From Stomoxys calcitrans (lineage: Eukaryota; Arthropoda; Insecta; Diptera; Muscidae), in the NCBI RefSeq assembly GCF_963082655.1, contig NC_081553.1, positions 184,944,195 through 185,008,194 of the forward strand: 64,000 bases of DNA, written 5' to 3'. How positions within the stretch are numbered: the first letter of the stretch is position 1; each line of letters opens with the position of its first letter. This document shows, piece by piece, positions 5,746-55,739 of the stretch. The translations under genes were made by a program, and so were the position numbers. The notes beneath the pieces are model-generated. The model did no database searches. It was not told where the DNA came from and was given only the letters and a program-made list of their open reading frames with translations.

Positions 5746-5814
5746 CAGAAAAATCCTCATCGTTTTGGGTGCCAGGCCATAACGGAGTAAGGGGGAATGA
5801 AAGGGCAGACACTC

Positions 5815-6838: not shown

Positions 6839-6840
6839 TT

Positions 6841-7060: not shown

Positions 7061-7084
7061 AGTGAGTCTGGTTGGAGATCCATC

Positions 7085-12883: not shown

Positions 12884-13011
12884 TTTGACAAAAACTATAT
12901 TTTCAATGAAATTAAATATTTGCTGTCAAGGGCAAAGCCTCCTTTACTAAATAAAACAGAAAAGGGGGATTCCCAAATAATATTTGAATTTGACTTTGAT
13001 GATAGCACATC

Positions 13012-28592: not shown

Positions 28593-28619
28593 TGGCCCGA
28601 GATGCAGCGAATGATAGAT

Positions 28620-31035: not shown

Positions 31036-31039
31036 GGCT

Positions 31040-31430
31040 TCTAGACTATGGAAGATACCACCCTTCACACTAATTACGATGGGGTACATTCAAAAGTCAG
31101 ACAACACTAACGAAAGCTATTGTGCAAAAACGACCGGTAGATGGGACTAATTTTGGATTTCGATGCCAATACGCACCACTCACAGTGGGGAAGCACGGAC
31201 ATCGCCAAGAGAGATATGTAATAGGTCAGAAGAAAGGCTTGTAGACTATGGAAGATATCAACCTTCACACTAATTGCGATAGGGTACATTCTTAAGTCAA
31301 ACAACACTAACAAAAGCTAGAGTGCGAAAACGACCGATAGATGGAGCTGACCTTGGGTTTCAATGCCAATGAGCACCACCCACAGTGGGGAAGTACGAAC
31401 ATCACCAAGTGAGATATGTGCTAGGTTAGA
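31040..31430. repeat. pair of ~190-bp tandem units (copy A)
   Basis: GACTATGGAAGATA near 31,043 recurs near 31,233. Both units contain CCTTCACACTAATT, CAACACTAAC, AACGACCG.TAGATGG and CACAGTGGGGAAG. Counterpart at about 55,200-55,590. Confidence 0.82.
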
Positions 31431-32919: not shown

Positions 32920-35313
32920 TTTGGTAAATGGGTGAGATTATCGGCGCAATACTGTCAGAGGCCTCGGTAAAGAAGATTGTGAGCAGAAGAACTCCGTAAG
33001 GAGGGATTTTATGCCCCTTTTGTGGTTATTGGTTATCAATAGGATTCTGAGCTCTTTCAAAAAGAAGAGAATGAAAGCCTTTGATCACGCGGATGATGTC
33101 GTCATCATAATGAGTGACCGTTTCCTTTCTACTATTATGGATCTCGTTCAGGGAGCGCTGAGGAAGCTGTCTGCATGGGCAAGGGTCAGCGGCTTGGCAT
33201 AAACCCTGGCAAATCTGCACTTTATAGGGCACATCTCTGATTTCGCTGAAATTTGGTGTGTAGATGTGGATTGACCCCATAACACGAATCCGTAGTCCAT
33301 TTTTGGGGCAAAGGCCCTGGTTTGCGCCCTAGGGGTGAAAATTCCCCCTTGGGAGAAGTTGTCCAACCTAGGCAATATGTGTATAAAATGACATGTATTG
33401 TCGAGTAGATTACGAATATGCAAACATATGTCCAAAACTTGAACCCGGGAAGGACCTAAGGTGTCTTGAGAATTTTCTCCTTTCTAGCAAAGGCAATATC
33501 GGTTTCATATGAATGGCGGAAATGAATAGATTAGGATAGATTGCAAAAAAATAAATTAAGCTTTAAAAAGAATTTTTTTTTTAAAGTCAAGCGTTTTTTT
33601 TTTTTTTTGAAGGAAAGAAAAAAAGTGCATTTTTTTGAAAATTTTTTCTTCCTCTTGGAGCCTAATTAATTTTTTTGCATATCTATCGTAATCTACTCCC
33701 TCTCACCTTTAATTTGATACCCACATTGCCTATGTTAACAAGATGAAAAATTCTGAAGTCCCCTTAGGTCCTTCGCGAGTCCCATTTTTTGATCATGTTT
33801 TTGCATATTCGTAATCTACTCGACAATACCTGTCATTTGATACTCATATTGCCTAGGTTGACCACTTATCCGCAAGGAGAGTTTATCGGCCCATAGGCGG
33901 GCTAGAAACCCTTGCCCCAAAATTAGACTTCAGAATCGTGTTCCTGGGGTCAAAATTAGGGCCCATAGGCGGGCTAGAAACCCTTGCCCCAAAAATAGAC
34001 TTCAGAATCGTGTTCCTGGGGTCAAATTTAGGCGGGGGATAGCAAGTGGAGCAAAAAATGGAAAACATCGGTGGTGCGCCCTATAAACTGCAGTTTTTCC
34101 TAAACCCCAGAAAGACTGAGCTGGTAGTTTTCACCAACGGGCCTGTGTTAGTAGAGTAGAGCTGCCGCTTTTTTCGGAGGCCAAATAGTTGGGCGTGTTT
34201 CTTAACCAAAATCTATGCTGGAAAAGAACTGAATGCGCTCTACTCCTGTGGTCAACTCGATAAGAAGGTGTTGGATACTCCGACTGGGGACGGTGCCCTA
34301 AATGTTTGAGCCGATTGTTCAGCCGATTCTTTCCTATGGATGTCTGGAGTGGCATCGGGCTCAGGACGAATGTGCCCTCCATAGTACGATCGAAAAGGTA
34401 TAAGGCACCGCGGTAGAGGAGTGTCCTGAGGAAGATTTGAATACCATTCTCGGCCTTTTTGCACCTATTTGTTGAATGCGTGGCAACGAAGAACGCTCTA
34501 AGACCGATGGAATCAGGCAGATGGCACTTTTTAAACTTTTGGCATTCTTCCATTATGCTGGGCGATGGAGATGAGGTATGCGCGATTAATTATATGCCAG
34601 GGAAGTACTTCCTCCTTGTTGACGGTTTGGTCGTCGTTTACCCAAAAGGCGATCTCTGGGCTGAAGGAAGCTCGTCCTTCCCAGGGCCCTCTGCATACAT
34701 TGATAGGTCTAAATTGGATGGGGGGACCTTAGCAAGTCTTCATTAAATTCATTGGAATCAGAAAATCTTATTGGCTTCTGTATGGATGCAGTCTCTTTTA
34801 GACAGAGGTCTTCTCGTTCCTGACGGCTTGGGAGACGCTGTGGATGCGAGAGCGGGGCGGACCGGTCAGACTACCACGATATAAGTGGCCAGTCAGACGG
34901 TGCTAAAGCCTTTGGGTTAGGCCATGTGCGGTCGAAAGTGGTTAGAAGAAGTAAAGACCTCTTCCAACCATTGGAAGGGCTTCCAGGCCTTGCTATTTTC
35001 CGTGTCAACGTTAAGGTTAAAGTGTGGCATGGAAAAAAGGGTTAAGGTTGATGTGTGGCAGGAAAAAATGTGGCAGGGAAAAAAGGGAACTAGCCAGGAA
35101 TGGCTGATTGGCAGTACTTTACATCATCAAACTTTGAGCAGACTTCTTTTTTGTTGCAGCTGGAGGTGAGGTATGCCCGACTTGTTATGTACCCAGGGAG
35201 CCCTTACTTATTGATAGTCTGGGAACTCTGGGCTAAACCCGGGACCTGTATACACAGATTGGTCTAAATTAAATGGAGGCAGAAGTCTGCATTAAATTCC
35301 TTGGAAAGAAAAT
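32920..35313 (+). pseudogene. second non-LTR retrotransposon remnant (RT, thumb, RNase H)
   Basis: 32,930-33,200 encodes a decayed RT palm (GAILSEASVKKIVSRRTP, stop, GGILCPLLWLLVINRI, then HADDVVIIM in place of YADD, and ALRKLSAWARV.GL). 34,090-34,150 gives the FLNPRKTELVVF segment. About 34,310-34,400 gives EPIVQPILSYGCLEWHRAQ. 34,560-34,745 runs into the RNase H start (SAYIDRSKLDGG), repeated in weaker form at about 35,165-35,310. Stops and frameshifts abound. It is diverged in sequence from the first family. Confidence 0.72.
33891..34030 (+). repeat. ~67-bp tandem duplication present only in copy A
   Basis: GCCCATAGGCGGGCTAGAAA through GAATCGTGTTCCTGGGGTCA occurs twice in tandem here but once at the corresponding place in copy A' (about 58,138-58,200). 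Confidence 0.85.
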
Positions 35314-35627
35314 GTGTGTGAAGTTAAATTCCGAATTTAACTAGCAGAGACACAAACCGCTTTGTTAACAGAGTGCGAGAGAGAGTAACAGAAGTATTAA
35401 CAGAGATCCACTGAGGGGTTAGCAGAGCTCTGTAAATACTTAACAGAACCAAAAAACAAGAGAAATTAATTAAATTTCTTACTTTTTATAAATTTTTGCA
35501 AATATTTGTAAAAAAAAAAAATAAAACCATAACAAAATTTGGAGTAAAATATCAATGCTTTGAATCAAAAACACCAAATTAAAAATATCTATTACCGTAG
35601 TACTGAGAAAAATGAAAAATTTATAAA
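35314..35627. other. outer flank of the inverted array with repeated TTAACAGA-like motifs
   Basis: Six variants of T(T/A)(A)RCAGA occur between about 35,343 and 35,447 (TAGCAGAGA, TTAACAGAG, GTAACAGAAG, TTAACAGAG, TTAGCAGAG, TTAACAGAA), followed by AT-rich DNA with an A-run at 35,510-35,521. It has no counterpart at the right side of the inverted structure. The function of the motif cluster is unknown. Confidence 0.5.
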
Positions 35628-38600
35628 AAAAATATTCTGGGCAGGATTATGACCAATGGTCCTGGAGGACATCTAAGAATTCTACAAGGTACTACCATAC
35701 ATCGTTGGAAAGGTGACGATGTGTGCTTTCCAAAACATATCTTTATTCGAAAATCGAGCGGTTGGTTTTTTCAAATTCCTGTCTTTTTTAAAAAAATTCT
35801 GGAAAAAAAATTTTGACAGGATTATGACCAACGCTCCTGGAGGACATCTAAGAATTCTACAAGGTACTACCATACATTGTTGGAAAGGTGACGATGTGTG
35901 CTTTCCAAAACATGTCCTTATTCGAAAATCGAGCAGTTGGTTTTTTCAAATTCCTGTCTTTTTTAAAAAAATTCTGGAAAAAAAATTTTGACAGGATTAT
36001 GACCAACGCTCCTGGAGGACATCTAAGAATTCTACAAGGTACTACCATACATCGTTGGAAAGGTGACGATGTGTGCTCTCCAAAACATGTCCTTATTCGA
36101 AAATCGAGCGGTTGGTTTTTTCAAATTCCTGTCTTTTTTAAAAAAATTCTGGAAAAAAAATTTTGACAGGATTATGACCAACGCTCCTGAAGGACATCTA
36201 AGAATTCTACAAGGTACTACCATACATCGTTGGAAAGGTGACGATGTGTGCTCTCCAAAACATGTCCTTATTCGAAAATCGAGCGGTTGGTTTTTTCAAA
36301 TTCCTGTCTTTTTTAAAAAAAATCTCAAAAAAATTCTGGAAAGGATTATGGCCAACGCTCCTGGAGGACATCTAAGTATTCTACAAGGTACTACCATACA
36401 TCGTTGGAAAGGTCACGATGTGTGCTTTCCAAAACATATCTTTATTCGAAAATCGAGCAGTTGGTTTTTTCAAATTCCTGTCTTTTTTAAAAAAAATCTC
36501 AAAAAAATTCTGGAAAGGATTATGGCCAACGCTCCTGGAGGACATCTAAGAATTCTACAAGGTACTACCATACATTGTTGGAAAGGTGACGATGTGTGCT
36601 TTCCAAAACATGTCCTTATTCGAAAATCGAGCAGTTGGTTTTTTCAAATTCCTGTCTTTTTTAAAAAAATTCTGGAAAAAAAATTTTGACAGGATTATGA
36701 CCAACGCTCCTGGAGGACATCTAAGAATTCTACAAGGTACTACCATACATCGTTGGAAAGGTCACGATGTGTGCTTTCCAAAACATGTCCTTATTCGAAA
36801 ATCGAGCGGTTGGTTTTTTCAAATTCCTGTCTTTTTTAAAAAAATTCTGGAAAAAAATCGGGACAGGATAATGGCCAATGCTCCTGGAGGACATCTAAGA
36901 ATTCTACAAGGTACTACCATACATCGTTGGAAAGGTGACGATGTGTGCTCTCCAAAACATATCTTTATTCGAAAATCGAGCGGTTGGTTTTTTCAAATTC
37001 CTGTCTTTTTTAAAAAAATTCTGGAAAAAAAATTTTGACAGGATTATGACCAACGCTCCTGGAGGACATCTAAGAATTCTACAAGGTACTACCATACATC
37101 GTTGGAAAGGTCACGATGTGTGCTCTCCAAAACATGTCCTTATTCGAAAATCGAGCGGTTGGTTTTTTCAAATTCCTGTCTTTTTTAAAAAAATTCTGGA
37201 AAAAAAATTTTGACAGGATTATGACCAACGCTCCTGAAGGACATCTAAGAATTCTACAAGGTACTACCATACATCGTTGGAAAGGTGACGATGTGTGCTC
37301 TCCAAAACATATCTTTATTCGAAAATCGAGCGGTTGGTTTTTTCAAATTCCTGTCTTTTTTAAAAAAATTCTGGAAAAAAAATTTTGACAGGATTATGAC
37401 CAACGCTCCTGGAGGACATCTAAGAATTCTACAAGGTACTACCATACATCGTTGGAAAGGTCACGATGTGTGCTTTCCAAAACATGTCCTTATTCGAAAA
37501 TCGAGCGGTTGGTTTTTTCAAATTCCTGTCTTTTTTAAAAAAATTCTGGAAAAAAATCGGGACAGGATAATGGCCAATGCTCCTGGAGGACATCTAAGAA
37601 TTCTACAAGGTACTACCATACATCGTTGGAAAGGTGACGATGTGTGCTCTCCAAAACATATCTTTATTCGAAAATCGAGCGGTTGGTTTTTTCAAATTCC
37701 TGTCTTTTTTAAAAAAATTCTGGAAAAAAATCGGGACAGGATAATGGCCAATGCTCCTGGAGGACATCTAAGAATTCTACAAGGTACTACCATACATCGT
37801 TGGAAAGGTGACGATGTGTGCTCTCCAAAACATATCTTTATTCGAAAATCGAGCGGTTGGTTTTTTCAAATTCCTGTCTTTTTTAAAAAAATTCTGGAAA
37901 AAAAATTTTGACAGGATTATGACCAACGCTCCTGGAGGACATCTAAGAATTCTACAAGGTACTACCATACATCGTTGGAAAGGTGACGATGTGTGCTCTC
38001 CAAAACATATCTTTATTCGAAAATCGAGCGGTTGGTTTTTTCAAATTCCTGTCTTTTTTAAAAAAAATCTCAAAAAAATTCTGGAAAGGATTATGGCCAA
38101 CGCTCCTGGAGGACATCTAAGAATTCTACAAGGTACTACCATACATCGTTGGAAAGGTCACGATGTGTGCTTTCCAAAACATATCTTTATTCGAAAATCG
38201 AGCAGTTGGTTTTTTCAAATTCCTGTCTTTTTTAAAAAAAATCTCAAAAAAATTCTGGAAAGGATTATGGCCAACGCTCCTGGAGGACATCTAAGTATTC
38301 TACAAGGTACTACCATACATCGTTGGAAAGGTCACGATGTGTGCTTTCCAAAACATATCTTTATTCGAAAATCGAGCAGTTGGTTTTTTCAAATTCCTGT
38401 CTTTTTTAAAAAAAATCTGGAAAAAAAATTTTGACAGGATTATGACCAACGCTCCTGGAGGACATCTAAGAATTCTACAAGGTACTACCATACATCGTTG
38501 GAAAGGTGACGATGTGTGCTCTCCAAAACATATCTTTATTCGAAAATCGAGCGGTTGGTTTTTTCAAATTCCTGTCTTTTTTAAAAAAATTCTGGAAAAA

Positions 38601-39417
38601 AAATTTTGACAGGATTATGACCAACGCTCCTGGAGGACATCTAAGAATTCTACAAGGTACTACCATACATCGTTGGAAAGGTGACGATGTGTGCTTTCCA
38701 AAACATATCTTTATTCGAAAATCGAGCAGTTGGTTTTTTCAAATTCCTGTCTTTTTTAAAAAAAATCTCAAAAAAATTCTGGAAAGGATTATGGCCAACG
38801 CTCCTGGAGGACATCTAAGAATTCTACAAGGTACTACCATACATCGTTGGAAAGGTGACGATGTGTGCTCTCCAAAACATGTCCTTATTCGAAAATCGAG
38901 CGGTTGGTTTTTTCAAATTCCTGTCTTTTTTAAAAAAATTCTGGAAAAAAAATTTTGACAGGATTATGACCAACGCTCCTGGAGGACATCTAAGAATTCT
39001 ACAAGGTACTACCATACATCGTTGGAAAGGTGACGATGTGTGCTTTCCAAAACATGCCCTTATTCGAAAATCGAACAGTTGGTTTTTTCATATTCCTGCC
39101 CTTTTTGAAAATGTATCGAAAAAAAATTTTTTTGAGAGAGAATGTTGTTGTCTAGCCTTTCTGTTGTGTACTCTATGTCGCTCTTTTCAGTTACAAACAT
39201 TGAATGTTAGAGCTTTCTGTAAAAATGTTAATTACATATAATCATATACATGGGAATGTATACTTTTCAACTCTGTAAAATAATTCATAAGTTTTCCCAT
39301 AGAGGTCGCTTGTGTTATTAGCGTACTCGCATATTGCGTCTGCGCTGTTTACTTTTTCCACTTCTGTTCCAAGCTTTTTTGAACATAGTGTGAGGTGTCT
39401 ATACTTTACTTTATCTA
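35628..39417 (+). repeat. left arm of the giant inverted repeat: ~20 tandem 174/175-bp units plus inner flank
   Basis: Units begin around ATTCTGG..AGGATTATG and include GGAGGACATCTAAG, CAAGGTACTACCATACAT, GTTGGAAAGGTSACGATG and CAAATTCCTGTC. Three unit types differ at the joint: TTTTGACAGG (175 bp), AAATCTC..GGAAAGG (174 bp) and ATCGGGACAGGATAATGG (174 bp). The last unit, ending near 39,100, diverges into a non-repeated inner flank of about 330 bp (to 39,417) that is matched, inverted, at 43,978-44,305. Open frames of up to 208 codons reflect the 174-base (58-codon) period. Confidence 0.95.
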
Positions 39418-39509
39418 AAATGTAGAATTAATAACAAAGTTGTATCATATATTTTTTTATTGTTTGATAAAATGCTCTAGAATGTAAACCTTTTAAACTT
39501 AACAAACAT

Positions 39510-40000
39510 TTTTTTATTAAAAGTTTTTATAAAAGCTCAGTCTTTCATGTTTAAAACTTAATGAATAGTAGATTTTTAAATGTTGGTCTCTTACAAAATA
39601 TGTAAAACAAATTGTTATGAAAGTACATATTTTTAAGCTTTAAAAGACTTTCTCATTCAAAACAAAAAAATATATAATTTATATTCGGAAATTAAAGAAA
39701 GAAAAAATTAAAAATGTATGTGTATTTATTTTGGTATGCTTTGCAAAATAGGTTTTTTTGGTTTACTATGCAAACCAATTTTTTATAAAAGTTCAGTCTT
39801 TCATGTTTAAAACTTAATTAATAGTAGATTTATAGATTTTGGTTTTTTACAAAAAAATTAAAGCATATTGTTATGTTCCAATTTTGGTTTGCTTTGGTTT
39901 ATTTTATAAGATTTCCGTCTTTTATGGTTTAAACTAAAAATATAATTTTTTTATAAAAGTTCAGTCTTTCATGGTTAAAACTTTTGGCGTTGGAGTTTTT
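39510..40000 (+). repeat. diverged repeats with TATAAAAGTTCAGTC motif
   Basis: A motif close to TTTATAAAAGTTCAGTCTTT followed by CATG.TTAAAACT occurs near 39,522, 39,782 and 39,950, with a weaker form near 39,903. The first two continue similarly through TTAAT.AATAGTAGATTT. Confidence 0.7.
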
Positions 40001-40599
40001 CATAAAAAATGCAACAACCATTTTTTTGCGTTAAACACAAATTTCACAAGGGTGTGTAAGCACTCGTGCGTACCTATTTTTATGTACATACTCGTATATA
40101 GAAGAACACAATTTGGGCGAAAATTCATGTAACTATCAAGAAAGGGTAAATTTCAGAATTTGGTTGTTAAAATTAAATTTGTTTATAAGTTGTTTAAAAA
40201 AATGGAATTCATAGTTTTCATAATAATTACTGAAGATTTTATAATTATTTCTGTTAATGAATTTACGTAGGGAATAATTTTTGTGATAGTTTGAGAGCAT
40301 GTTTCTTATTAATGTGCATTTGAATTCCAAAAAATTAATATTTGCATATATTTTATAATAAAATATTAGTGTTTCAAAAATTAAGTAGTTAAATTTAATA
40401 AAGAAGCTCAAGTATATATTAAGTAGCCATAAAATTATCCAAAAAAAAAAACGAATTAAAGAAAAATGCAACCAAAGTATTTAAAAGCCTCTAAATAACA
40501 GCTGCAAATTCAGTTTTATGTGTCAATTGTTTAAGAGTCAAAACTAAGCATATCAAATAAAACATATATTAAATGAATCGATGCATGTTAAATGTGTTA

Positions 40600-40945
40600 A
40601 AGATTAGGCTTAAAGCTTGCCAAATACAACCATATCGGAAGAAAAACATGTATGGGAGCTTTATATACAGTAGAACCGATTTTCCAAGATAAATAGCGCT
40701 TGTGCCAATGAGAGTTATGTGAGCCAATAAGTAACATTTGCAAAATTTGGTGACAATCTGATAAAAAATGCGACACGTACTTTAATAACAAAAACACATT
40801 GACAGACAGACAAACAAAAACTGACAGACGGATGGACAAACAGACGGTCAAAAGGACGGACTAATAAACGTACAATCGGACTGACATGACCTGATGTAAT
40901 ATATACACAAGGTCATAATACCCTTTAGCACAGTAGAGGTGAAAA
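40600..40945 (-). repeat. mini-me-like fragment in the loop
   Basis: A GACAGACAGACAAAC / GACAGACGGATGG tract (40,801-40,860), CGTACAATCGGACTGACATG and ATAATATATACACAAGG, with TATGGGAGCTTTATATACAG upstream, show the order expected of a minus-oriented mini-me-type element of a more diverged subfamily. Confidence 0.5.
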
Positions 40946-41320
40946 GTATCGTGAAAACCCAAAGTTTTAAAATGTTGCGCGCATTTCAGCATGAAAAACT
41001 CCTAGAAAAATGATTAAATGTTTAAATTGATTAAATTGTTAGTACGTAAAAAAAAACACACAGAAGCTTTGGACTTAAATTGAACGAAATAGCGGCAATT
41101 CACCCTTAATATATATGTCGTACTCAATTTTCGTGTACGACTGAGCGAAGTGTATGTCCATATTTTTCAGCATTATGTTCAAAATCGGGGTGATTATTTT
41201 AAATAATACCGGAATGATATAAAGTGGAATATTCGGCATTGGTTGTCAAATATTCGATTCTACATACATAGAAATGGGCGATAGGTAAAAACCCAAAAGG
41301 AATTTACCCGGTAAATTGGA

Positions 41321-41338
41321 TAAATACCCGGGTATTTA
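41321..41338. repeat. 18-base perfect palindrome
   Basis: TAAATACCCGGGTATTTA reads the same on both strands and sits among further TTTACCC/GGTAAA motifs (41,285-41,370). Such clusters resemble subterminal repeats of hAT-type transposons, but no terminus was found. Confidence 0.6.
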
Positions 41339-41589
41339 CCCATTTATACCCAAAATCTGGGTATTTATAATTTTGCAGATATCTTGGGTATAACAAAATT
41401 TTCCAAACAGTACCGGTACCGGTGTCTGTTAGCCACGAAAGGCGGGTAATAAATAATAACTTTTCAAAATGTCTGCTAAATAATTTAAGGCACTCGACAA
41501 ACGTCCCAGGTCAAAAAAGCACAAAAAGATGCTTTGTGCTCTTGAATAAACTGTACATAAAAAGCTCTAGCAATTGTATTGCTAGTACA

Positions 41590-41720
41590 TTCCATTTTCT
41601 GCGCTGACAGCTCAGATAGAGAGAAATGTTTAAATTGTTGGCAGACGAGAAGAAGCAATCGTCGAAAGAACCAATAAACATTAAGCAGAGAAAGCAATTT
41701 TGAGAAAATTGCTCTCGCTG
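41590..41720 (+). repeat. loop paralogous segment, copy 1
   Basis: It shares with 43,055-43,185 the series TTCTGCGCTGACAGCTCAGA, GAGAGAAA, CGAGAAG.AGCA, GTCGAA.GA, CCAAT.AACATT.AGCAGA and TTTT, at moderate identity. Confidence 0.65.
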
Positions 41721-43054
41721 CATCCAGAAAGTAATTTTACTCTGTCTCTTTGCTTCTGAGAGATCACGCAATGTGCGTAATGTTGGTGTCAAAGCCATAG
41801 CTTCATTGTTATGGGCGCACACACGCACCCATTTCCACATTATTTCTTATGCTGCGGGCATCTGTTAAACGTACACACAACATATTCAAGCGGCATAGAA
41901 AAATAAAGTGAAAGTATGTGTGTGCTAGAGAACAGCAGCATGCAACCACAAAAATAAATGCCAATAAACATGAAGAGAATGGCTCGCTTTTAGCTCTGAC
42001 TACGAAAAAGAAACAAGCAACGTAACAGCAAAAGCAACCAAAAAATCAGAATAACTTTACTTGACTTCCTAAGCACGCAGTTTAAGCATTTACACACTAT
42101 CAAAGCAACATGAATCGATTTCAATTGCTTAACTGTCAGCATTTTGTTTTTTTTTTTGTATTTTTTTGCTTTAACTTTGAATTTTTCCTTAAGCTTTCCA
42201 TAGTCCAGTAACTAAACTTCTATTGTAGACCTCAAGGGGACTTTTTTATAGGGAATTTTGAGCACTATCCAGCAAAAAATTTTTAAAATTGGTCCAAAAA
42301 CCAAGCCTAATCAACCAACTTAAGGGGGGATGACCACCTAGGGCCTTGAAATTTTGCACATGATCTCGCTAACATCTTACCTCTAACCATTAAAAATTTC
42401 AGTGAGATATCTTTAAACTGTAATGAACGGTAGATTTTTTACTATTTTTTTCGATTCTATTCTACTCTGCGGTGGTGGGCAAAGCAAAACCATTGCATCT
42501 AATCCTGGACATTCTCCTCTTGAAATCATCAAACTATTTATCGACCTGCTGTTAGATTATAACATGAGACCACCCACTTTTTCACTTTTCTTCACAACCA
42601 AATAAAATTGTGTAAAACATTTTGTCCAGATGATTTTTACAATACATACGGTATATTTAAACAATCCATACAGCTTCAATTTCATTTGTCTATTTCCGCC
42701 AAAATTGTTTAGAGTTTTAATATAATGAAAGTTATTAATTTTTTTAATAAAGTCTTCGTATAAAACACTTTTTTCAATATTTAAAAAATCTTTTATAGAA
42801 ACGTTTTTTTTCTCTTTTAAATCCATATAAAATAGTTTCGCACTAAGGCGGAAAAGTGTTTTTTTGTTTTGCTCCATAATGAAACCTCACTTAACAAATG
42901 CTTTCACTAGAATGATTCTATTTCTTTTTTTGTTTTTTGTAACAACACCTACGTTGCGCAGGATTAACGCATGTCGCAGTTCAAAGAAGCTAATGGTGCA
43001 GCTTTTGCAATTGGAACGCTGCAAGAGAAATTTGCTACGCTCCAACATTTCCCC

Positions 43055-43185
43055 ATGTTCTGCACTGACAGATCAGAGAGAGAGAGAGAAAGAGTTGTTT
43101 TGATTGCCGGCTGGCGAGAAGGAGCATTTGTCGAACGATAACCAATTAACATTTAGCAGACAGAGAGTAATTTTTCACTCTCACT
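43055..43185 (+). repeat. loop paralogous segment, copy 2
   Basis: Counterpart of 41,590-41,720 in direct orientation (TTCTGCACTGACAGATCAGA, a longer GA tract, GGCGAGAAGGAGCA, TTGTCGAACGA, CCAATTAACATTTAGCAGA). Confidence 0.65.
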
Positions 43186-43251
43186 CACGACCAATGGTCT
43201 TGCTTACATTGCATCTACTACAGTTAGAGAATTATTTCAAACTCTGAATGA

Positions 43252-43358
43252 ACAATTGTACTCACGCACAAATAGTCAAAAAGCAGTGCCAATGCCTGTC
43301 ATAGACTATGACTGCGGTGGGCCCAATTATTTGGCTATGTTTGCGTGAGTACAATTGT
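43252..43358. repeat. imperfect palindrome of 107 bp
   Basis: ACAATTGTACTCACGCA at 43,252 pairs with TGCGTGAGTACAATTGT ending at 43,358. Pairing continues weakly inward to the central palindrome GTCATAGACTATGAC (about 43,299-43,313). Confidence 0.8.
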
Positions 43359-43980
43359 TTTGTCTACATGCGAAATAAAATTGCAAATTGCCTAACCTAC
43401 AATATTATTCACCGAATGTTCGTGGTTTGTTTTATTTTCTGCTTGTGGAAAGAGAGCTCGCTCGTAACAAAAAAAAAACTTCTCTGCTGAGAGAAAAACC
43501 ACAGGGTACCAATTTGGCCCTCGCTGGCCTAGACCAGGCATGGGCAAAGGAACTCTTTTGAGCATTTGCACTTAGCAGCTTATTCTCGTTTGGTGGATAC
43601 TAGCTCTCTTTATACACGTTGAAATAGAAACAAACTACGTACATTATTAATTACTGATCAGGCAACATAAACACAAATAACGACGAATGAATGAAAACTC
43701 AATTTGTTCCTTACCAGAAATCTTTTGGAGATGCTTAATTTGGAAGCAAACACAGTCATGTTCAAATTGTAATGAGACATTTGCCCAATAAGTATATATC
43801 AATAGAAAGGCTCTCATCATTAAAGCCACAAGTTCAACCCAAAAAAAAACTCATTTGAAATTAATTGTAAAAAAATAACTATTTTCGAACCATTTTGTCA
43901 TTGCAATTTTATTTTGCGTGTAGACCAAAACAACTGTACTCACGAACAGAGCCAAAAATATGTGTCCATGCCTGCCATAG
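43307..43980. repeat. ~80-bp inverted repeats bracketing ~510 bp at the loop/right-arm boundary
   Basis: 43,307-43,386 (CTATGACTGCGGTGGG to GAAATAAAATTGCAA) matches the reverse complement of 43,901-43,980 (TTGCAATTTTATTTTGCGTG to CATGCCTGCCATAG). The pair could be the ends of a non-autonomous DNA element. The outer end coincides within a few bases with the start of the right arm (43,978). Confidence 0.7.
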
Positions 43981-46900
43981 ATAAAGTAAAGTATAGACAC
44001 CTCACACTATGTTCAAAAAAGCTTGGAACAGAAGTGGAAAAAGTAAACAGCGGAGACGCAATATGCGAGTACGCTAATAACACAAGCGACCTCTATGGGA
44101 AAACTTATGAATTATTTTACAGAGTTGAAAAGTATACATTCCCATGTATATGATTATATGTAATTAACATTTTTACAGAAAGCTCTAACATTCAATGTTT
44201 GTAACTGAAAAGAGCGACATAGAGTACACAACAGAAAGGCTAGACAACAACATTCTCTCTCAAAAAAATTTTTTTTCGATACATTTTCAAAAAGGGCAGG
44301 AATATGAAAAAACCAACTGTTCGATTTTCGAATAAGGGCATGTTTTGGAAAGCACACATCGTCACCTTTCCAACGATGTATGGTAGTACCTTGTAGAATT
44401 CTTAGATGTCCTCCAGGAGCGTTGGTCATAATCCTGTCAAAATTTTTTTTCCAGAATTTTTTTAAAAAAGACAGGAATTTGAAAAAACCAACTGCTCGAT
44501 TTTCGAATAAGGACATGTTTTGGAGAGCACACATCGTGACCTTTCCAACGATGTATGGTAGTACCTTGTAGAATTCTTAGATGTCCTCCAGGAGCGTTGG
44601 TCATAATCCTGTCAAAATTTTTTTTCCAGAATTTTTTTAAAAAAGACAGGAATTTGAAAAAACCAACTGCTCGATTTTCGAATAAGGACATGTTTTGGAA
44701 AGCACACATCGTCACCTTTCCAACAATGTATGGTAGTACCTTGTAGAATTCTTAGATGTCCTCCAGGAGCGTTGGCCATAATCCTTTCCAGAATTTTTTT
44801 GAGATTTTTTTTAAAAAAGACAGGAATTTGAAAAAACCAACTGCTCGATTTTCGAATAAAGATATGTTTTGGAAAGCACACATCGTGACCTTTCCAACGA
44901 TGTATGGTAGTACCTTGTAGAATACTTAGATGTCCTCCAGGAGCGTTGGCCATAATCCTTTCCAGAATTTTTTTGAGATTTTTTTTAAAAAAGACAGGAA
45001 TTTGAAAAAACCTACCGCTCGATTTTCGAATAAGGACATGTTTTGGAGAGCACACATCGTCACCTTTCCAACGATGTATGGTAGTACCTTGTAGAATTCT
45101 TAGATGTCCTTCAGGAGCGTTGGTCATAATCCTGTCAAAATTTTTTTTCCAGAATTTTTTTAAAAAAGACAGGAATTTGAAAAAACCAACCGCTCGATTT
45201 TCGAATAAGGACATGTTTTGGAGAGCACACATCGTCACCTTTCCAACGATGTATGGTAGTACCTTGTAGAATTCTTAGATGTCCTCCAGGAGCGTTGGCC
45301 ATAATCCTTTCCAGAATTTTTTTGAGATTTTTTTTAAAAAAGACAGGAATTTGAAAAAACCAACTGCTCGATTTTCGAATAAAGATATGTTTTGGAAAGC
45401 ACACATCGTCACCTTTCCAACGATGTATGGTAGTACCTTGTAGAATTCTTAGATGTCCTCCAGGAGCATTGGCCATTATCCTGTCCCGATTTTTTTCCAG
45501 AATTTTTTTAAAAAAGACAGGAATTTGAAAAAACCAACCGCTCGATTTTCGAATAAGGACATGTTTTGGAAAGCACACATCGTGACCTTTCCAACGATGT
45601 ATGGTAGTACCTTGTAGAATTCTTAGATGTCCTCCAGGAGCGTTGGTCATAATCCTGTCAAAATTTTTTTTCCAGAATTTTTTTAAAAAAGACAGGAATT
45701 TGAAAAAACCAACCGCTCGATTTTCGAATAAAGATATGTTTTGGAAAGCACACATCGTGACCTTTCCAACGATGTATGGTAGTACCTTGTAGAATTCTTA
45801 GATGTCCTCCAGGAGCGTTGGTCATAATCCTGTCAAAATTTTTTTTCCAGAATTTTTTTAAAAAAGACAGGAATTTGAAAAAACCAACTGCTCGATTTTC
45901 GAATAAGGACATGTTTTGGAAAGCACACATCGTCACCTTTCCAACAATGTATGGTAGTACCTTGTAGAATTCTTAGATGTCCTTCAGGAGCGTTGGTCAT
46001 AATCCTGTCAAAATTTTTTTTCCAGAATTTTTTTAAAAAAGACAGGAATTTGAAAAAACCAACCGCTCGATTTTCGAATAAGGACATGTTTTGGAGAGCA
46101 CACATCGTCACCTTTCCAACGATGTATGGTAGTACCTTGTAGAATTCTTAGATGTCCTCCAGGAGCGTTGGCCATAATCCTTTCCAGAATTTTTTTGAGA
46201 TTTTTTTTAAAAAAGACAGGAATTTGAAAAAACCAACTGCTCGATTTTCGAATAAAGATATGTTTTGGAAAGCACACATCGTCACCTTTCCAACGATGTA
46301 TGGTAGTACCTTGTAGAATTCTTAGATGTCCTCCAGGAGCATTGGCCATTATCCTGTCCCGATTTTTTTCCAGAATTTTTTTAAAAAAGACAGGAATTTG
46401 AAAAAACCAACCGCTCGATTTTCGAATAAGGACATGTTTTGGAAAGCACACATCGTGACCTTTCCAACGATGTATGGTAGTACCTTGTAGAATTCTTAGA
46501 TGTCCTCCAGGAGCGTTGGTCATAATCCTGTCAAAATTTTTTTTCCAGAATTTTTTTAAAAAAGACAGGAATTTGAAAAAACCAACTGTTCGATTTTCGA
46601 ATAAGGGCATGTTTTGGAAAGCACACATCGTCACCTTTCCAACGATGTATGGTAGTACCTTGTAGAATTCTTAGATGTCCTCCAGGAGCGTTGGTCATAA
46701 TCCTGTCAAAATTTTTTTTCCAGAATTTTTTTAAAAAAGACAGGAATTTGAAAAAACCAACTGCTCGATTTTCGAATAAGGACATGTTTTGGAGAGCACA
46801 CATCGTGACCTTTCCAACGATGTATGGTAGTACCTTGTAGAATTCTTAGATGTCCTCCAGGAGCGTTGGTCATAATCCTGTCAAAATTTTTTTTCCAGAA

Positions 46901-49900
46901 TTTTTTTAAAAAAGACAGGAATTTGAAAAAACCAACTGCTCGATTTTCGAATAAGGACATGTTTTGGAAAGCACACATCGTCACCTTTCCAACAATGTAT
47001 GGTAGTACCTTGTAGAATTCTTAGATGTCCTCCAGGAGCGTTGGCCATAATCCTTTCCAGAATTTTTTTGAGATTTTTTTTAAAAAAGACAGGAATTTGA
47101 AAAAACCAACTGCTCGATTTTCGAATAAAGATATGTTTTGGAAAGCACACATCGTGACCTTTCCAACGATGTATGGTAGTACCTTGTAGAATACTTAGAT
47201 GTCCTCCAGGAGCGTTGGCCATAATCCTTTCCAGAATTTTTTTGAGATTTTTTTTAAAAAAGACAGGAATTTGAAAAAACCAACCGCTCGATTTTCGAAT
47301 AAGGACATGTTTTGGAGAGCACACATCGTCACCTTTCCAACGATGTATGGTAGTACCTTGTAGAATTCTTAGATGTCCTTCAGGAGCGTTGGTCATAATC
47401 CTGTCAAAATTTTTTTTCCAGAATTTTTTTAAAAAAGACAGGAATTTGAAAAAACCAACCGCTCGATTTTCGAATAAGGACATGTTTTGGAGAGCACACA
47501 TCGTCACCTTTCCAACGATGTATGGTAGTACCTTGTAGAATTCTTAGATGTCCTCCAGGAGCGTTGGCCATAATCCTTTCCAGAATTTTTTTGAGATTTT
47601 TTTTAAAAAAGACAGGAATTTGAAAAAACCAACTGCTCGATTTTCGAATAAGGACATGTTTTGGAAAGCACACATCGTCACCTTTCCAACAATGTATGGT
47701 AGTACCTTGTAGAATTCTTAGATGTCCTTCAGGAGCGTTGGTCATAATCCTGTCAAAATTTTTTTTCCAGAATTTTTTTAAAAAAGACAGGAATTTGAAA
47801 AAACCAACCGCTCGATTTTCGAATAAGGACATGTTTTGGAGAGCACACATCGTCACCTTTCCAACGATGTATGGTAGTACCTTGTAGAATTCTTAGATGT
47901 CCTCCAGGAGCGTTGGCCATAATCCTTTCCAGAATTTTTTTGAGATTTTTTTTAAAAAAGACAGGAATTTGAAAAAACCAACTGCTCGATTTTCGAATAA
48001 AGATATGTTTTGGAAAGCACACATCGTCACCTTTCCAACGATGTATGGTAGTACCTTGTAGAATTCTTAGATGTCCTCCAGGAGCATTGGCCATTATCCT
48101 GTCCCGATTTTTTTCCAGAATTTTTTTAAAAAAGACAGGAATTTGAAAAAACCAACCGCTCGATTTTCGAATAAGGACATGTTTTGGAAAGCACACATCG
48201 TGACCTTTCCAACGATGTATGGTAGTACCTTGTAGAATTCTTAGATGTCCTCCAGGAGCGTTGGTCATAATCCTGTCAAAATTTTTTTTCCAGAATTTTT
48301 TTAAAAAAGACAGGAATTTGAAAAAACCAACTGTTCGATTTTCGAATAAGGGCATGTTTTGGAAAGCACACATCGTCACCTTTCCAACGATGTATGGTAG
48401 TACCTTGTAGAATTCTTAGATGTCCTCCAGGAGCGTTGGTCATAATCCTGTCAAAATTTTTTTTCCAGAATTTTTTTAAAAAAGACAGGAATTTGAAAAA
48501 ACCAACTGCTCGATTTTCGAATAAGGACATGTTTTGGAGAGCACACATCGTGACCTTTCCAACGATGTATGGTAGTACCTTGTAGAATTCTTAGATGTCC
48601 TCCAGGAGCGTTGGTCATAATCCTGTCAAAATTTTTTTTCCAGAATTTTTTTAAAAAAGACAGGAATTTGAAAAAACCAACTGCTCGATTTTCGAATAAG
48701 GACATGTTTTGGAAAGCACACATCGTCACCTTTCCAACAATGTATGGTAGTACCTTGTAGAATTCTTAGATGTCCTCCAGGAGCGTTGGCCATAATCCTT
48801 TCCAGAATTTTTTTGAGATTTTTTTTAAAAAAGACAGGAATTTGAAAAAACCAACTGCTCGATTTTCGAATAAAGATATGTTTTGGAAAGCACACATCGT
48901 GACCTTTCCAACGATGTATGGTAGTACCTTGTAGAATACTTAGATGTCCTCCAGGAGCGTTGGCCATAATCCTTTCCAGAATTTTTTTGAGATTTTTTTT
49001 AAAAAAGACAGGAATTTGAAAAAACCAACCGCTCGATTTTCGAATAAGGACATGTTTTGGAGAGCACACATCGTCACCTTTCCAACGATGTATGGTAGTA
49101 CCTTGTAGAATTCTTAGATGTCCTTCAGGAGCGTTGGTCATAATCCTGTCAAAATTTTTTTTCCAGAATTTTTTTAAAAAAGACAGGAATTTGAAAAAAC
49201 CAACCGCTCGATTTTCGAATAAGGACATGTTTTGGAGAGCACACATCGTCACCTTTCCAACGATGTATGGTAGTACCTTGTAGAATTCTTAGATGTCCTC
49301 CAGGAGCGTTGGCCATAATCCTTTCCAGAATTTTTTTGAGATTTTTTTTAAAAAAGACAGGAATTTGAAAAAACCAACTGCTCGATTTTCGAATAAAGAT
49401 ATGTTTTGGAAAGCACACATCGTCACCTTTCCAACGATGTATGGTAGTACCTTGTAGAATTCTTAGATGTCCTCCAGGAGCATTGGCCATTATCCTGTCC
49501 CGATTTTTTTCCAGAATTTTTTTAAAAAAGACAGGAATTTGAAAAAACCAACCGCTCGATTTTCGAATAAGGACATGTTTTGGAAAGCACACATCGTGAC
49601 CTTTCCAACGATGTATGGTAGTACCTTGTAGAATTCTTAGATGTCCTCCAGGAGCGTTGGTCATAATCCTGTCAAAATTTTTTTTCCAGAATTTTTTTAA
49701 AAAAGACAGGAATTTGAAAAAACCAACCGCTCGATTTTCGAATAAAGATATGTTTTGGAAAGCACACATCGTGACCTTTCCAACGATGTATGGTAGTACC
49801 TTGTAGAATTCTTAGATGTCCTCCAGGAGCGTTGGCCATAATCCTTTCCAGAATTTTTTTGAGATTTTTTTTAAAAAAGACAGGAATTTGAAAAAACCAA

Positions 49901-52249
49901 CTGCTCGATTTTCGAATAAAGATATGTTTTGGAAAGCACACATCGTCACCTTTCCAACGATGTATGGTAGTACCTTGTAGAATTCTTAGATGTCCTCCAG
50001 GAGCGTTGGTCATAATCCTGTCAAAATTTTTTTTCCAGAATTTTTTTAAAAAAGACAGGAATTTGAAAAAACCAACCGCTCGATTTTCGAATAAAGATAT
50101 GTTTTGGAGAGCACACATCGTCACCTTTCCAACGATGTATGGTAGTACCTTGTAGAATTCTTAGATGTCCTCCAGGAGCATTGGCCATTATCCTGTCCCG
50201 ATTTTTTTCCAGAATTTTTTTAAAAAAGACAGGAATTTGAAAAAACCAACCGCTCGATTTTCGAATAAGGACATGTTTTGGAAAGCACACATCGTGACCT
50301 TTCCAACGATGTATGGTAGTACCTTGTAGAATTCTTAGATGTCCTCCAGGAGCGTTGGTCATAATCCTGTCAAAATTTTTTTTCCAGAATTTTTTTAAAA
50401 AAGACAGGAATTTGAAAAAACCAACCGCTCGATTTTCGAATAAAGATATGTTTTGGAGAGCACACATCGTCACCTTTCCAACGATGTATGGTAGTACCTT
50501 GTAGAATTCTTAGATGTCCTCCAGGAGCGTTGGTCATAATCCTGTCAAAATTTTTTTTCCAGAATTTTTTTAAAAAAGACAGGAATTTGAAAAAACCAAC
50601 CGCTCGATTTTCGAATAAGGACATGTTTTGGAGAGCACACATCGTGACCTTTCCAACGATGTATGGTAGTACCTTGTAGAATTCTTAGATGTCCTCCAGG
50701 AGCGTTGGTCATAATCCTGTCAAAATTTTTTTTCCAGAATTTTTTTAAAAAAGACAGGAATTTGAAAAAACCAACCGCTCGATTTTCGAATAAAGATATG
50801 TTTTGGAGAGCACACATCGTCACCTTTCCAACGATGTATGGTAGTACCTTGTAGAATTCTTAGATGTCCTCCAGGAGCATTGGCCATTATCCTGTCCCGA
50901 TTTTTTTCCAGAATTTTTTTAAAAAAGACAGGAATTTGAAAAAACCAACCGCTCGATTTTCGAATAAGGACATGTTTTGGAAAGCACACATCGTGACCTT
51001 TCCAACGATGTATGGTAGTACCTTGTAGAATTCTTAGATGTCCTCCAGGAGCGTTGGTCATAATCCTGTCAAAATTTTTTTTCCAGAATTTTTTTAAAAA
51101 AGACAGGAATTTGAAAAAACCAACTGCTCGATTTTCGAATAAGGACATGTTTTGGAAAGCACACATCGTCACCTTTCCAACAATGTATGGTAGTACCTTG
51201 TAGAATTCTTAGATGTCCTCCAGGAGCGTTGGCCATAATCCTTTCCAGAATTTTTTTGAGATTTTTTTTAAAAAAGACAGGAATTTGAAAAAACCAACTG
51301 CTCGATTTTCGAATAAAGATATGTTTTGGAAAGCACACATCGTGACCTTTCCAACGATGTATGGTAGTACCTTGTAGAATACTTAGATGTCCTCCAGGAG
51401 CGTTGGCCATAATCCTTTCCAGAATTTTTTTGAGATTTTTTTTAAAAAAGACAGGAATTTGAAAAAACCAACCGCTCGATTTTCGAATAAGGACATGTTT
51501 TGGAGAGCACACATCGTCACCTTTCCAACGATGTATGGTAGTACCTTGTAGAATTCTTAGATGTCCTTCAGGAGCGTTGGTCATAATCCTGTCAAAATTT
51601 TTTTTCCAGAATTTTTTTAAAAAAGACAGGAATTTGAAAAAACCAACCGCTCGATTTTCGAATAAGGACATGTTTTGGAGAGCACACATCGTCACCTTTC
51701 CAACGATGTATGGTAGTACCTTGTAGAATTCTTAGATGTCCTCCAGGAGCGTTGGTCATAATCCTGTCAAAATTTTTTTTCCAGAATTTTTTTAAAAAAG
51801 ACAGGAATTTGAAAAAACCAACTGCTCGATTTTCGAATAAGGACATGTTTTGGAAAGCACACATCGTCACCTTTCCAACAATGTATGGTAGTACCTTGTA
51901 GAATTCTTAGATGTCCTCCAGGAGCGTTGGTCATAATCCTGTCAAAATTTTTTTTCCAGAATTTTTTTAAAAAAGACAGGAATTTGAAAAAACCAACCGC
52001 TCGATTTTCGAATAAAGATATGTTTTGGAGAGCACACATCGTCACCTTTCCAACGATGTATGGTAGTACCTTGTAGAATTCTTAGATGTCCTCCAGGAGC
52101 GTTGGCCATAATCCTTTCCAGAATTTTTTTGAGATTTTTTTTAAAAAAGACAGGAATTTGAAAAAACCAACTGCTCGATTTTCGAATAAAGATATGTTTT
52201 GGAAAGCACACATCGTCACCTTTCCAACGATGTATGGTAGTACCTTGTA
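43978..52249 (-). repeat. right arm of the giant inverted repeat: inner flank plus ~45 tandem units
   Basis: This is the reverse complement of the left-arm design. The inner flank (43,978-44,305) is followed by units of 174/175 bp with the same three joint types. It ends at 52,249 in the middle of a unit (TAGTACCTTGTA, where AGAATTC would follow), joined directly to CGGCTTCGGACACTG of duplicated copy A'. The inner flank and last unit are nearly identical between arms, but the order of unit variants is not, so the two arrays have changed independently. Confidence 0.95.
46008..49252. repeat. higher-order repeat: 10-unit block of 1,745 bp in tandem
   Basis: The succession of unit variants, including rare ones (GTGACC/GTCACC, CTGTTCG with GGGCATG, AATACTTAG), from 46,008 to about 47,507 is repeated with the same order at 47,753-49,252, an offset of 1,745 bp. 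A second relation at offset 4,014 bp links 44,437-45,660 with 48,451-49,670. Confidence 0.85.
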
Positions 52250-52750
52250 CGGCTTCGGACACTGTGTTATCCTTGATACAAATTCCGATGTTCCAGGTAG
52301 TGTGGATTACACTCTACCTGTGACGGTTTTTGATTAATAAATACTGTACCACTTTTCCTGATTGGAACCGATTGGAATTACGATATCCCTGGTAAAAGAA
52401 GTTACAAAGACTTCTACACGGATGATTTCAAACTAGGCGACCCGGGGGACTTTGTGGTGTTATCTAAAGCGGAGATCATTGCAATTAATGTCACAACGAC
52501 AATTGGCTTAAATATCTTCTCAGACAGCCAGGCAGCCAATAAATCCCTGGAGAACTTATTTCTGAACACAAAAACCGCCCTCTAATGTTGGAGTTCTGTC
52601 AACGAGATGGCTGAACAGTTCAAAATTCATCTGTTCTGGGTGCCGGGCCACAGAGATATCCCAGGAAATGGTAAAGCGGATGAGCTTGCGAAACTCGGAA
52701 CAGGAATCTGTGGGGATTCCTCTAGCTACATGTAATCTAAGTCATCAGAT
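52250..52750 (+). pseudogene. RNase H end of non-LTR element (copy A')
   Basis: It encodes FSDSQAANKSL (near 52,510), a stop, and FWVPGHRDIPGNGKADELA (near 52,635-52,694), as at 28,350-28,535. The RT part is absent because the array replaces it. Confidence 0.8.
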
Positions 52751-52778
52751 CTGGCCCGAGATGCAGCGAATGATAGAT

Positions 52779-54324
52779 GGACACAAAACCGATCTCCCGA
52801 TTTGACTTCTTGAGCCCTTACAAGCCTCAATTTTTCTCCGATTTGGTTGAAATTTGACATGTAATGTTCTGTTATGACTTTCAACAACTGTGCCAAGTAC
52901 GGTCCAGATCGGTCTATAACCTGATATAGCTCCCATATAAACCGATCTCCCGATTTGACTTCTTGAGCCCTTACAAGCCTCAATTTTTCTCCGATTTGGT
53001 TGAAATTTGACATGAAATGTTCTGTTATGACTTTCAACAACTGTGCCAAGTACGGTCCAGATCGGTCTATAACCTGATATAGCTCCCATATAAACCGATC
53101 TCCCGATTTGACTTCTTGATCTCCCGATTTGACTCTCCGATTGGGCTAAAATTTTGCATGTGGTGTTCTGTTATGACTTTCAACAACTGTGCTTAGTATG
53201 ATCCAAATCGGTGTATAGCCTTACATAGCTCCCATATAAACCGATCTCCCGATTTGACTTCTTGAGCCCTTACAATGCGCAATTTTTCTCCGATTTGGTT
53301 GAAATTTTGCATGTAGTTTTCTGTTATGACTTCCAACAATTGTGCCAAGTACGGTCGGAATCGGTCCATAACCTGATATAGCTCCCATATAAACCGATCT
53401 CCCGATTTGACTTCTTGAGCTCTTACAATGCGCAATTTTTGTCCGATTTAGCTAAAATTTTGCATGTAGTGTTCTGTTATGACTTTCAACAACTGTGCTT
53501 AGTACGATCGAAGTCGATCTATAACCTGATATAGCTCCCATATATAAACCGATCTCCCGATTTGACTTCTTCAGCCCTTACAAGCCCCAATTTTTCTCCG
53601 ATTTGGTTGAAATTTGGCATGTAATGTTCTGTTATGGCTTTCAACAACTGTGCCGAGTACGGTCGAATTCGGTGTATAACCTGATATAGCTCCCATATAA
53701 ACCGATCTCCCGATTTGACTTCTTGAGCCCTTACAAGTCGCAGTTTTTATCGAATTTCGCTGAAATTGTTCATGCGGTGTTCGGTTATGTCTTTCAACAA
53801 CTGTGCTTAGTACGATAACAATCGGTCCATAACCTGATATAGCTCCCATATAAACCGATCTCCCGATTTGACTTCTTGAGCCCTTACAAGCCGCAATTTT
53901 TGCCCGATTTGGCTAAAATTTTGCATGTGGTATTCTGTTATGACTTCCAACAACTGTGCCAAGTACGGTCCAAATCGGTCTATGACCTGATATAGCTCCC
54001 ATATAAACCGATCTTCCGATTTGACTTCTTGAACCCTTACAATGCGCAATTTTTGTCCGATTGAGCTTAAATTTTGCATGTGGTGTTCTGTTATGTCTTC
54101 CAACAACTGGACCAGGTACGGTCCATATCAGTCTAAAAGTTGATACAGCTCCCTTATAAACCGGTCTCTCGATTATCCTTATTCGGTTCCTAGAAGATTT
54201 AATTTTTGCTGGTTTGACAGAAGGTTGGTATGTAGAATAAAATTATGTCCTTCAACTAAATTTGTTTTGTGGTGGTTTGCCAAGATTCGTCCCGGCCTAA
54301 CTAAGCACGCATTTACTTGTTATT
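52779..54324 (+). repeat. 153-bp tandem array (copy A')
   Basis: Practically identical to 28,620-30,165, including unit order and the unusual short unit with doubled CTCCCGATTTGACT near 53,100. Confidence 0.88.
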
Positions 54325-55194
54325 TTTACGAACTTAGTCATGGGCGGCGATCAAGTAGCTCCGAAGGTCCTTGTTTGCATAAAACAGGGTCTAACTTAAC
54401 CATCCTTATTGAATATAACACACATGCATTTTCCATCAAATTTTCCTTCAAATGACCCAAAATCGCACAATCACTATATGCTATGGCCACAAATACTGAA
54501 ACATCACCATATATCGTATTTAAATCAAAAGCACCTATCAAAAATTTATAATTTATGCCAACATCAGCACAGGTGTGCACTGATTCCCTATACAAACATA
54601 TAAAATATTTAACGGCCTTCATCTATTACACCATGTTCCAATTTGGCTAATTTGTGACAACCCTCAACAACCAAACATACCATAAAAAATACACGATTCA
54701 ATAAAAATTTTCGAACAAACATATGCGGAGGAGCCGAAACGACGACAAACACCAGAGGAGCCTGTAATTGTTTATGACCCTGCCATAACATCCAAACTAA
54801 AGAACGAACACCCAACTAGAGGGGAAAGCAAATTGAAGCTCTTATAGGTGACCCCACCCCCCTCCTGCCATGTCTTAACAGGAAAAGAAGAAAACCTTCT
54901 TTTTTTCCTTGTACTTCACTGCTGCAGTAACTACTTGAACCATACCTTCATACCTACGAGTATTTGATATGCGGCATGGACGACTCTCTGTGTGGCTGAT
55001 GAATGTTGTGGCATGTCAGCTGTGATAGCTTTCTTGTGCAGTGATTTGTTTTTGTTGTTTGATACTTATATCTCAAACAGAAGCAGAGTGAAGCCACCTT
55101 GATATCAGAGTTGCCATGTTTTACCAACATTTTTCTTAGATTGTCTTTAAATGATCGGCATAAATACTAGGCGAACTTCTGTGGATACATTCGA
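54325..55194. other. unique DNA inside copy A', no gene seen
   Basis: Same content as 30,166-31,035. Confidence 0.5.
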
Positions 55195-55739
55195 GGCTTC
55201 TAGACTATGGAAGATACCACCCTTCACACTAATTACGATGGGGTACATTCAAAAGTCAGACAACACTAACGAAAGCTATTGTGCAAAAACGACCGGTAGA
55301 TGGGACTAATTTTGGATTTCGATGCCAATACGCACCACTCACAGTGGGGAAGCACGGACATCGCCAAGAGAGATATGTAATAGGTCAGAAGAAAGGCTTG
55401 TAGACTATGGAAGATATCAACCTTCACACTAATTGCGAAAGGGTACATTCTTAAGTCAAACAACACTAACAAAAGCTAGAGTGCGAAAACGACCGATAGA
55501 TGGAGCTGACCTTGGGTTTCAATGCCAATGAGCACCACCCACAGTGGGGAAGTACGAACATCACCAAGTGAAATATGTACCAAGTCAGAGGTGAAAGACA
55601 TAACTTTGATGAACCTCGATGCTACATTTTTAAGCGATTGGAGAGGAGGTCTTCTATCTGGACCATAGATATCATAGATATATCTTACGCGGAGAGCTTT
55701 GACTTGAAGTTTCGGACCATAAACACCTCGCGTGTTGAT

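Follow-up and report, generated by a model that had tools for sequence, protein, structure and literature searches.

In the FB and FB-NOF foldback elements, long inverted arms built of tandem repeats enclose a loop, sometimes with a protein gene inside it. The FB units of Drosophila melanogaster are short, at 10-31 bp, and FB-NOF is reportedly non-autonomous, being so called in the title of a 2013 paper by Badal. Here we describe a 64,000-nucleotide stretch of the Stomoxys calcitrans genome (the window; G000:C2:184944195-185008194, in a genome of 1.07 Gb), in which two arrays of a 175-bp unit face each other. Very probably, the locus is a copy, truncated on the right and with an internal deletion, of a giant Mutator-type foldback DNA transposon with very recent activity in this genome. 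Foldbacks are mostly known as gene-less copies; the Stomoxys genome holds full-length copies with an intact NOF-like gene beside this deletion derivative, which makes both a NOF-type protein as foldback transposase and the role of the repeat arms directly testable.

The closest kind of described element is the Mutator-type foldback, represented by FB-NOF and Tetris. With FB-NOF the Stomoxys element has in common the inverted arms of tandem repeats and a loop with a gene, and a distant relative of its protein carries the name NOF-FB; it differs in its 175-bp unit and in a gene that is intact and lies inside elements with both ends. Tetris, a foldback of Drosophila virilis, is described as having outer, tandem-repeat (~220 bp), inner, and middle domains in mirror order, terminal inverted repeats (TIRs) of up to 1,735 bp, 8-10-bp target duplications, repeats grown into satellite-like arrays, and internal size variation, with no copy that encodes a protein (PMC4079207). 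The likeness of the Stomoxys element to it is by description only, and comprises the domain order, the satellite-like arrays, the size variation, and target duplications of 8-9 bp that fall within the Tetris range. Unlike Tetris as described there (PMC4079207), it has arrays of up to 7.9 kb in complete copies, and its full-length copies encode an intact protein of 1044 amino acids (aa).

Three further systems are instructive. Galileo, of the P superfamily, has long repetitive TIRs of up to ~1.26 kb, with tandem repeats of ~210 bp in subfamily F and different repeat numbers in the two TIRs of one copy (PMC3573991, PMC3688188), and footprinting located extra transposase binding sites inside its repeats (PMC3688188). 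The Stomoxys element likewise has repetitive TIRs with unequal repeat numbers, but Galileo has a P-family transposase with a THAP domain, whereas Pfam found no THAP in the Stomoxys family (PMC3573991, PMC3688188). A 2026 survey of arthropod Mutator-like elements (MULEs) gives complete elements of 1.9-10.0 kb (largest 9,972 bp; Diptera 2.0-5.3 kb) and TIRs of 13-1193 bp in its text, with one table row of 1527 (PMC13359780). These share terminal inverted repeats with the Stomoxys element and have a Mutator-kind DDE transposase, which the Stomoxys protein putatively matches by motif; the Stomoxys element, unlike those surveyed, is 16-26 kb long with arms of 2-8 kb (PMC13359780). Finally, Tm1 of Meloidogyne (Mutator/Foldback) occurs in non-autonomous and transposase-bearing forms, and resembles the Stomoxys element in having both forms, composite foldback TIRs, varying repeat numbers, and 9-bp target duplications, but its repeat motif is ~14 bp against a unit of 175 bp (PMC3169594). 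No earlier description of the Stomoxys element was found among the literature titles searched, with subscription papers and Repbase outside that search, and its giant arms, intact gene, and matched arms are apparently new.

Anatomy of the window copy

The copy in the window comprises the following features, given by position in the window and strand:

35312-35626, + strand: left outer domain, 315 bp, beginning 5'-ATGTGTGTGAAG; the window copy has the left one only
35627-39130, + strand: left arm array, 20.1 units of 174/175 bp (Tandem Repeats Finder)
39131-39417, + strand: left inner domain, 287 bp, with 0 differences from four full-length copies
39418-43977, strand not applicable: loop, 4,560 bp, what is left of the 9.56-kb loop found in full-length copies, lacking the 1044-aa open reading frame (ORF)
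41409-41416, strand not applicable: internal deletion junction, where 5,010 bp that the copy at C2:129.9 Mb (L016) contains are missing, with the 6-bp filler GTACCG
43978-44264, - strand: right inner domain, 287 bp, inverted, with one private substitution
44265-52249, - strand: right arm array, 45.8 units of 175 bp, inverted, ending broken inside a unit at 52249

The arrays are opposite in orientation with ~95% identity by BLAST, and the two inner domains form an inverted pair with 1 mismatch over 287 bp. A first-pass annotation of the sequence had proposed facing arrays of a ~175-bp unit around a 4.56-kb loop, flanked by nearly unchanged inverted copies and with no useful transposase inside, and these claims were borne out by Tandem Repeats Finder and BLAST, by the 287-bp domains, and by the loop ORFs, respectively. 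In total, 103 ORFs of at least 30 aa overlap the element region; the Pfam scan took 10 loop ORFs of 68-114 aa, and none passed its curated cut-off. The structure it described thus stands, while the 315-bp outer domain, the duplication of the flank, and the break inside a unit at 52249 had been overlooked.

Several trivial or alternative identities were discarded. A hairpin sequencing artefact was ruled out, since the 4.56-kb loop has no self-similarity of that size and the same anatomy occurs at other loci. The array was also dropped as coding sequence (a 208-aa ORF in it gave no relatives), as was a hammerhead or other RNA in the 175-bp unit: across the window, matches to Rfam families all stayed below the cut-offs, with two sub-threshold matches within 35300-45500.

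The arms of the window copy are closely related. Their 19 and 45 whole units amount to only 20 distinct sequences, and a run of seven exactly matching, identically ordered units is common to both, compared with a longest common run of five in 2000 trials in which the unit order of the left arm was shuffled. The small number of distinct units and a common run beyond that of the shuffles indicate that the likeness is not due to chance. Moreover, an outer inverted block (35729-37730 versus 50028-52029) matches over 2,002 bp with 1 mismatch, and an inner one (38903-39417 versus 43978-44492) over 515 bp, again with 1 mismatch. The stretch between these blocks measures 1,172 bp in the left arm and 5,535 bp in the right, an excess of ~4.36 kb, or 25 units. 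These matches, together with a length difference in whole units, indicate that the arms were once identical and now differ as unequal exchange would leave them. The right arm also holds an internal block duplication, in which nine units recur unchanged 10 units further along.

Two motifs recur in the units of the window arms and of the arms of seven other copies. The terminal heptamer ATGTGTG is present in 389 of 401 units, always oriented as at the nearest end of the element (~1% for a shuffled unit), and by analogy with Galileo the arrays may constitute repeated putative binding sites. The 17-mer CATCGTTGGAAAGGTGA, or a near variant, occurs in every unit. Compared with the CENP-B box consensus, this 17-mer has three mismatches in 359 of the 401 units and four in 42; in the window, CENP-B-box-like sites number 35 against 0.54 expected, an expectation to be read with the non-independence of the units in mind.

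Copies of the element across the genome

A genome search with the inner domain as query returned 61 candidates and scored 40 of them; copy numbers are therefore lower bounds, and arrays without an inner domain are uncounted. Fourteen neighbouring pairs less than 20 kb apart were found among the 40 scored matches, leaving 12 unpaired. The pairs face each other in 13 of 14 cases, enclosing loops of 2.2 to 14.2 kb (9.56-9.64 kb in five of the 13), and facing pairs that have inner domain, outer domain, and loop in common occur on C1, C2, C4, and C5. The only pair in direct orientation lies at G000:C4:57991212 and 57994659, 3.1 kb apart; this pair and the 12 unpaired matches were covered by the genome search only.

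The four full-length copies that we read (19,522, 16,377, 25,676, and 18,835 bp) all consist of an outer domain, an array, an inner domain, and a 9.56-kb loop, followed by the mirror image. Their outer domains are 307 bp on each side and 98-100% identical to window positions 35320-35626. For the copies at C5:107.9, C1:76.1, and C5:87.7 Mb, the arms and flanks were covered and the loops left out, and the outer-to-inner structure was present on both sides in all three. One additional short, old copy, read from flank to inner domain except for parts of the inner domains and the loop, has very unequal arms, the left with ~15 units and the right with about two. The copies have the same end, ATGTGTGTGAAG, with one shorter end at C4:101.5 Mb. 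The number of whole units per arm varies widely: 9/39, 17/13, 44/39, 22/22, 18/23, 20/26, and 26/19 in seven copies, and 19/45 in the window.

Target duplications flank six of the eight copies with both ends, a count that leaves out the window copy, whose right end is gone. Five are of 9 bp (GACAATATT, GGGTCTTAG, GTATTCGAT, CTTTTTATA, and also AAAAAATAC) and one is of 8 bp (CATAAAAT); none was found at the copies at C4:71.4 and C4:101.5 Mb. The latter copy (L018-L020), which also has little similarity between its own arms and one shortened end, is possibly a recombinant of two copies. When the flanks of five copies were compared with each other, no common site beyond short repeats was found. 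The target duplication typical of the Mutator superfamily is 9 bp (8-10 in foldback members), matching the five of 9 bp and the one of 8 bp among the eight copies, two having none. In structure, the window copy and the copies read belong to the foldback class, with long inverted repeats, mostly of tandem units, around a middle domain.

Overall, the structure in the window belongs to a dispersed transposon family, of which it is a single copy, and is not a local satellite block. The first-pass annotation had weighed a non-autonomous foldback family against an inverted satellite block, and had pointed to other loci with inverted inner flanks and arrays, matched outer ends, and target duplications as the evidence to look for. 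The dispersed facing pairs (13 of 14), the common ends, and the target duplications (6 of 8) bear out the former; this recurrent anatomy refutes the latter. An ordinary satellite block, partly inverted by local rearrangement, would fit the homogenised units and the block duplication in the right window arm, with its nine identical units 10 units apart. It is nonetheless barely credible in view of the inner domain, outer domain, and loop that recur as facing pairs on four contigs, and of the target duplications. Indeed, fixed outer and inner domains bound the arrays in all complete copies read, unlike in an ordinary head-to-tail satellite. The array motif had no exact match in viral_contigs or genome_contigs, collections with few or no insects.

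The 1044-aa protein and the internal deletion

An intact 1044-aa ORF is present in all four full-length copies; relative to the first, the other three show 0, 1, and 0 residue differences. The DDE transposases of MULEs carry a CxxH motif between the second D and the E. In the protein family, residues D415, D493, C536, H539, and E702 are invariant in all seven sequences that cover them (D415 in 8/8), and by motif this D-D-E pattern appears MULE-like. Pfam gave no MULE match for the protein or its family of eight members, and no THAP in any of the eight. On the 1044-aa protein it reported C48 only, and the C48 peptidase was detected in seven of eight members with E values of 1 or less (4.2e-15 at best). 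A profile match to SENP1 reached 5.9e-17, and the 50 best matches of the full protein model in the PDB were Ulp1/SENP-like and related cysteine peptidases; among viral protein structures, the model found weak peptidase matches only. A model of residues 190-720 had no match at E <= 0.001 in the structure libraries, and no confident fold match; WRKY-like entries and one Hermes entry among the weaker structure matches are leads rather than tests. No relatives of the protein were found in viral_contigs. A 'Protein in NOF-FB transposable element' from Aphis craccivora is 24% identical over 52% (E 2.2e-25), and through this one named, distant relative the protein is putatively linked to FB-NOF. From its motifs and the anatomy of the copies, we infer that the protein is the transposase.

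The window copy derives from such an element. Its inner domain and loop match those of the full-length copy at C2:129.9 Mb along 2,279 + 2,562 bp (4,841 bp) without mismatch or gap, and the filler at the deletion junction repeats letters of the deletion's right edge, as would be expected of a remnant of aborted gap repair. In the coordinates of one full-length copy (L010), the deletion covers 2310-7324 and the ORF 3123-6257, so the window copy has lost the whole gene. The private change in its right inner domain is its only inner-domain difference from the four full-length copies; together with the identity to the C2:129.9 Mb copy, this indicates that the window copy is very young, internally deleted, and non-autonomous. 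That it may be non-autonomous had been suggested from the start, correctly, while its origin by deletion from a protein-encoding element and its missing right end were beyond the view of a single sequence.

Short facing motifs, CAGGCATGGGCA and TGTCCATGCCTG, lie inside the loop at 43538-43974 (L010 9437-9876) and resemble the termini of a small hAT element. Being present in all four full-length loops, they are older than the deletion in the window copy.

Evolution of the arms and of the right junction

We compared the arms of eight copies, including the window copy, by the longest exact block between each left arm and each right arm. A copy's own right arm was the best match in 6/8 rows, and its own left arm in 5/8 columns. 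Of the 40,320 possible pairings, only four give a sum of log block lengths as high as the one observed, and eight of 40,320 reach the observed value when distinct units in common are scored instead. The arms of one copy are thus usually closer to each other than to the arms of other copies, although the loops are almost identical. There are exceptions: the left arm at C5:107.9 Mb fits the right arm at C4:101.5 Mb better than its own, and the copies at C5:87.7 and C1:76.1 Mb match across copies, with 20 of 28 distinct units in common and cross-copy blocks of 1057 and 987 bp.

The window copy and the C2:129.9 Mb copy show how far arms and loops can part. Although identical over 4,841 bp of inner domain and loop, they have only five distinct units in common, of 20 and 19, and the window arms contain eight letter variants, each at least two times, that the arms at C2:129.9 Mb lack. 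Arms and loops thus do not have one history, which implies either that loops were passed among copies or that arms were exchanged. These data bear on a simpler account, in which each copy's arms are alike by descent from one ancestral pair, with no copying from arm to arm after insertion. The blocks and units common to C1:76.1 and C5:87.7 Mb speak for it, as arm content inherited through transposition, and so do the poorly matching own arms at C4:101.5 and C5:107.9 Mb. Against it stand the few units common to the window and C2:129.9 Mb copies despite their identity over 4,841 bp, and the longest left-by-right blocks between these two (502 and 648 bp), which are shorter than those between their own arms (1,508 bp in the window copy, 2,493 bp at C2:129.9 Mb). 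We consider such common descent plausible, if somewhat short of an even chance. Matched arms beside uniform loops reflect, in our reading, repair within and between elements. A more far-reaching model, which we put forward tentatively and regard as rather unlikely, is that of an autonomous NOF-type foldback that rebuilds itself: one arm would be copied from the other across the fold during or after transposition, arm turnover would be far faster than point mutation, gap repair would keep the coding loop nearly unchanged, and the arms would be self-correcting, satellite-sized arrays of binding sites. The family offers a clear case of satellite arrays that arise and change within a mobile element, the arms evolving as pairs.

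For the giant foldback as a whole, we propose the following mechanism. The 1044-aa protein, acting as transposase, would cut at the outer domains and insert with a 9-bp stagger, and would mobilise deleted copies such as that in the window in trans, with the arrays supplying repeated binding sites. Unequal exchange would add and remove array units, while one arm would template the repair of the other and so keep both arms of a copy similar. Uniform loops, and also deletions, would come from ectopic gap repair in the loop. Last, in the window copy, a later break in the right arm would have been sealed with a duplicate of the left flank.

The right array breaks off within a unit at 52249, and the natural right end of the copy is lost. 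The two segments concerned are:

28091-31412, + strand: left flank segment, original of a direct duplication, with 1 mismatch in 3,322 aligned positions
52250-55571, + strand: recent copy of 28091-31412, immediately adjoining the broken right array

Past the duplicated 3,322 bp, the flanks can be aligned on to 35313 and 59489, with 2-10% substitutions and with indels, and the change is abrupt. One related copy in the window aligns unbroken over the 28091 point (27827-28500 versus 4347-3606), and another over 59489 (59290-59747 versus 59612-60105). These unbroken relatives indicate that the left flank is original at 28091 and the right flank uninterrupted at 59489, and hence that the join at 52249/52250 is derived. 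Ectopic recombination between two complete insertions is not supported as the source of the duplication, since the right end lies inside a unit.

The junction and the duplicate flank could instead be a false assembly join (of two haplotypes, or from a chimeric read), the arms themselves being real. The array is cut inside a unit without clear microhomology, the adjoining segment matches the left flank at 99.97% identity over 3.3 kb before the abrupt shift to 2-10% difference with indels, and among the copies read the right outer domain is absent only from this one. Yet the window contains 0 N letters, and so no declared gap, and a real duplication through template switching would give the same picture. 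A false join is quite possible, though we lean against it, and it would touch only the right end of the window copy, not the family.

A dispersed 153-bp tandem repeat family occurs at five places in the window (1388-2261, 13608-14906, 28627-30015, 52786-54174, and 61044-61604). A 31-bp satellite (97%) occupies 63132-64000 and runs off the window end. The window also holds an intact Tc1-like transposase ORF of 345 aa at 11858-12892 on the - strand, with 3632 relatives, the nearest outside the window being 82% identical.

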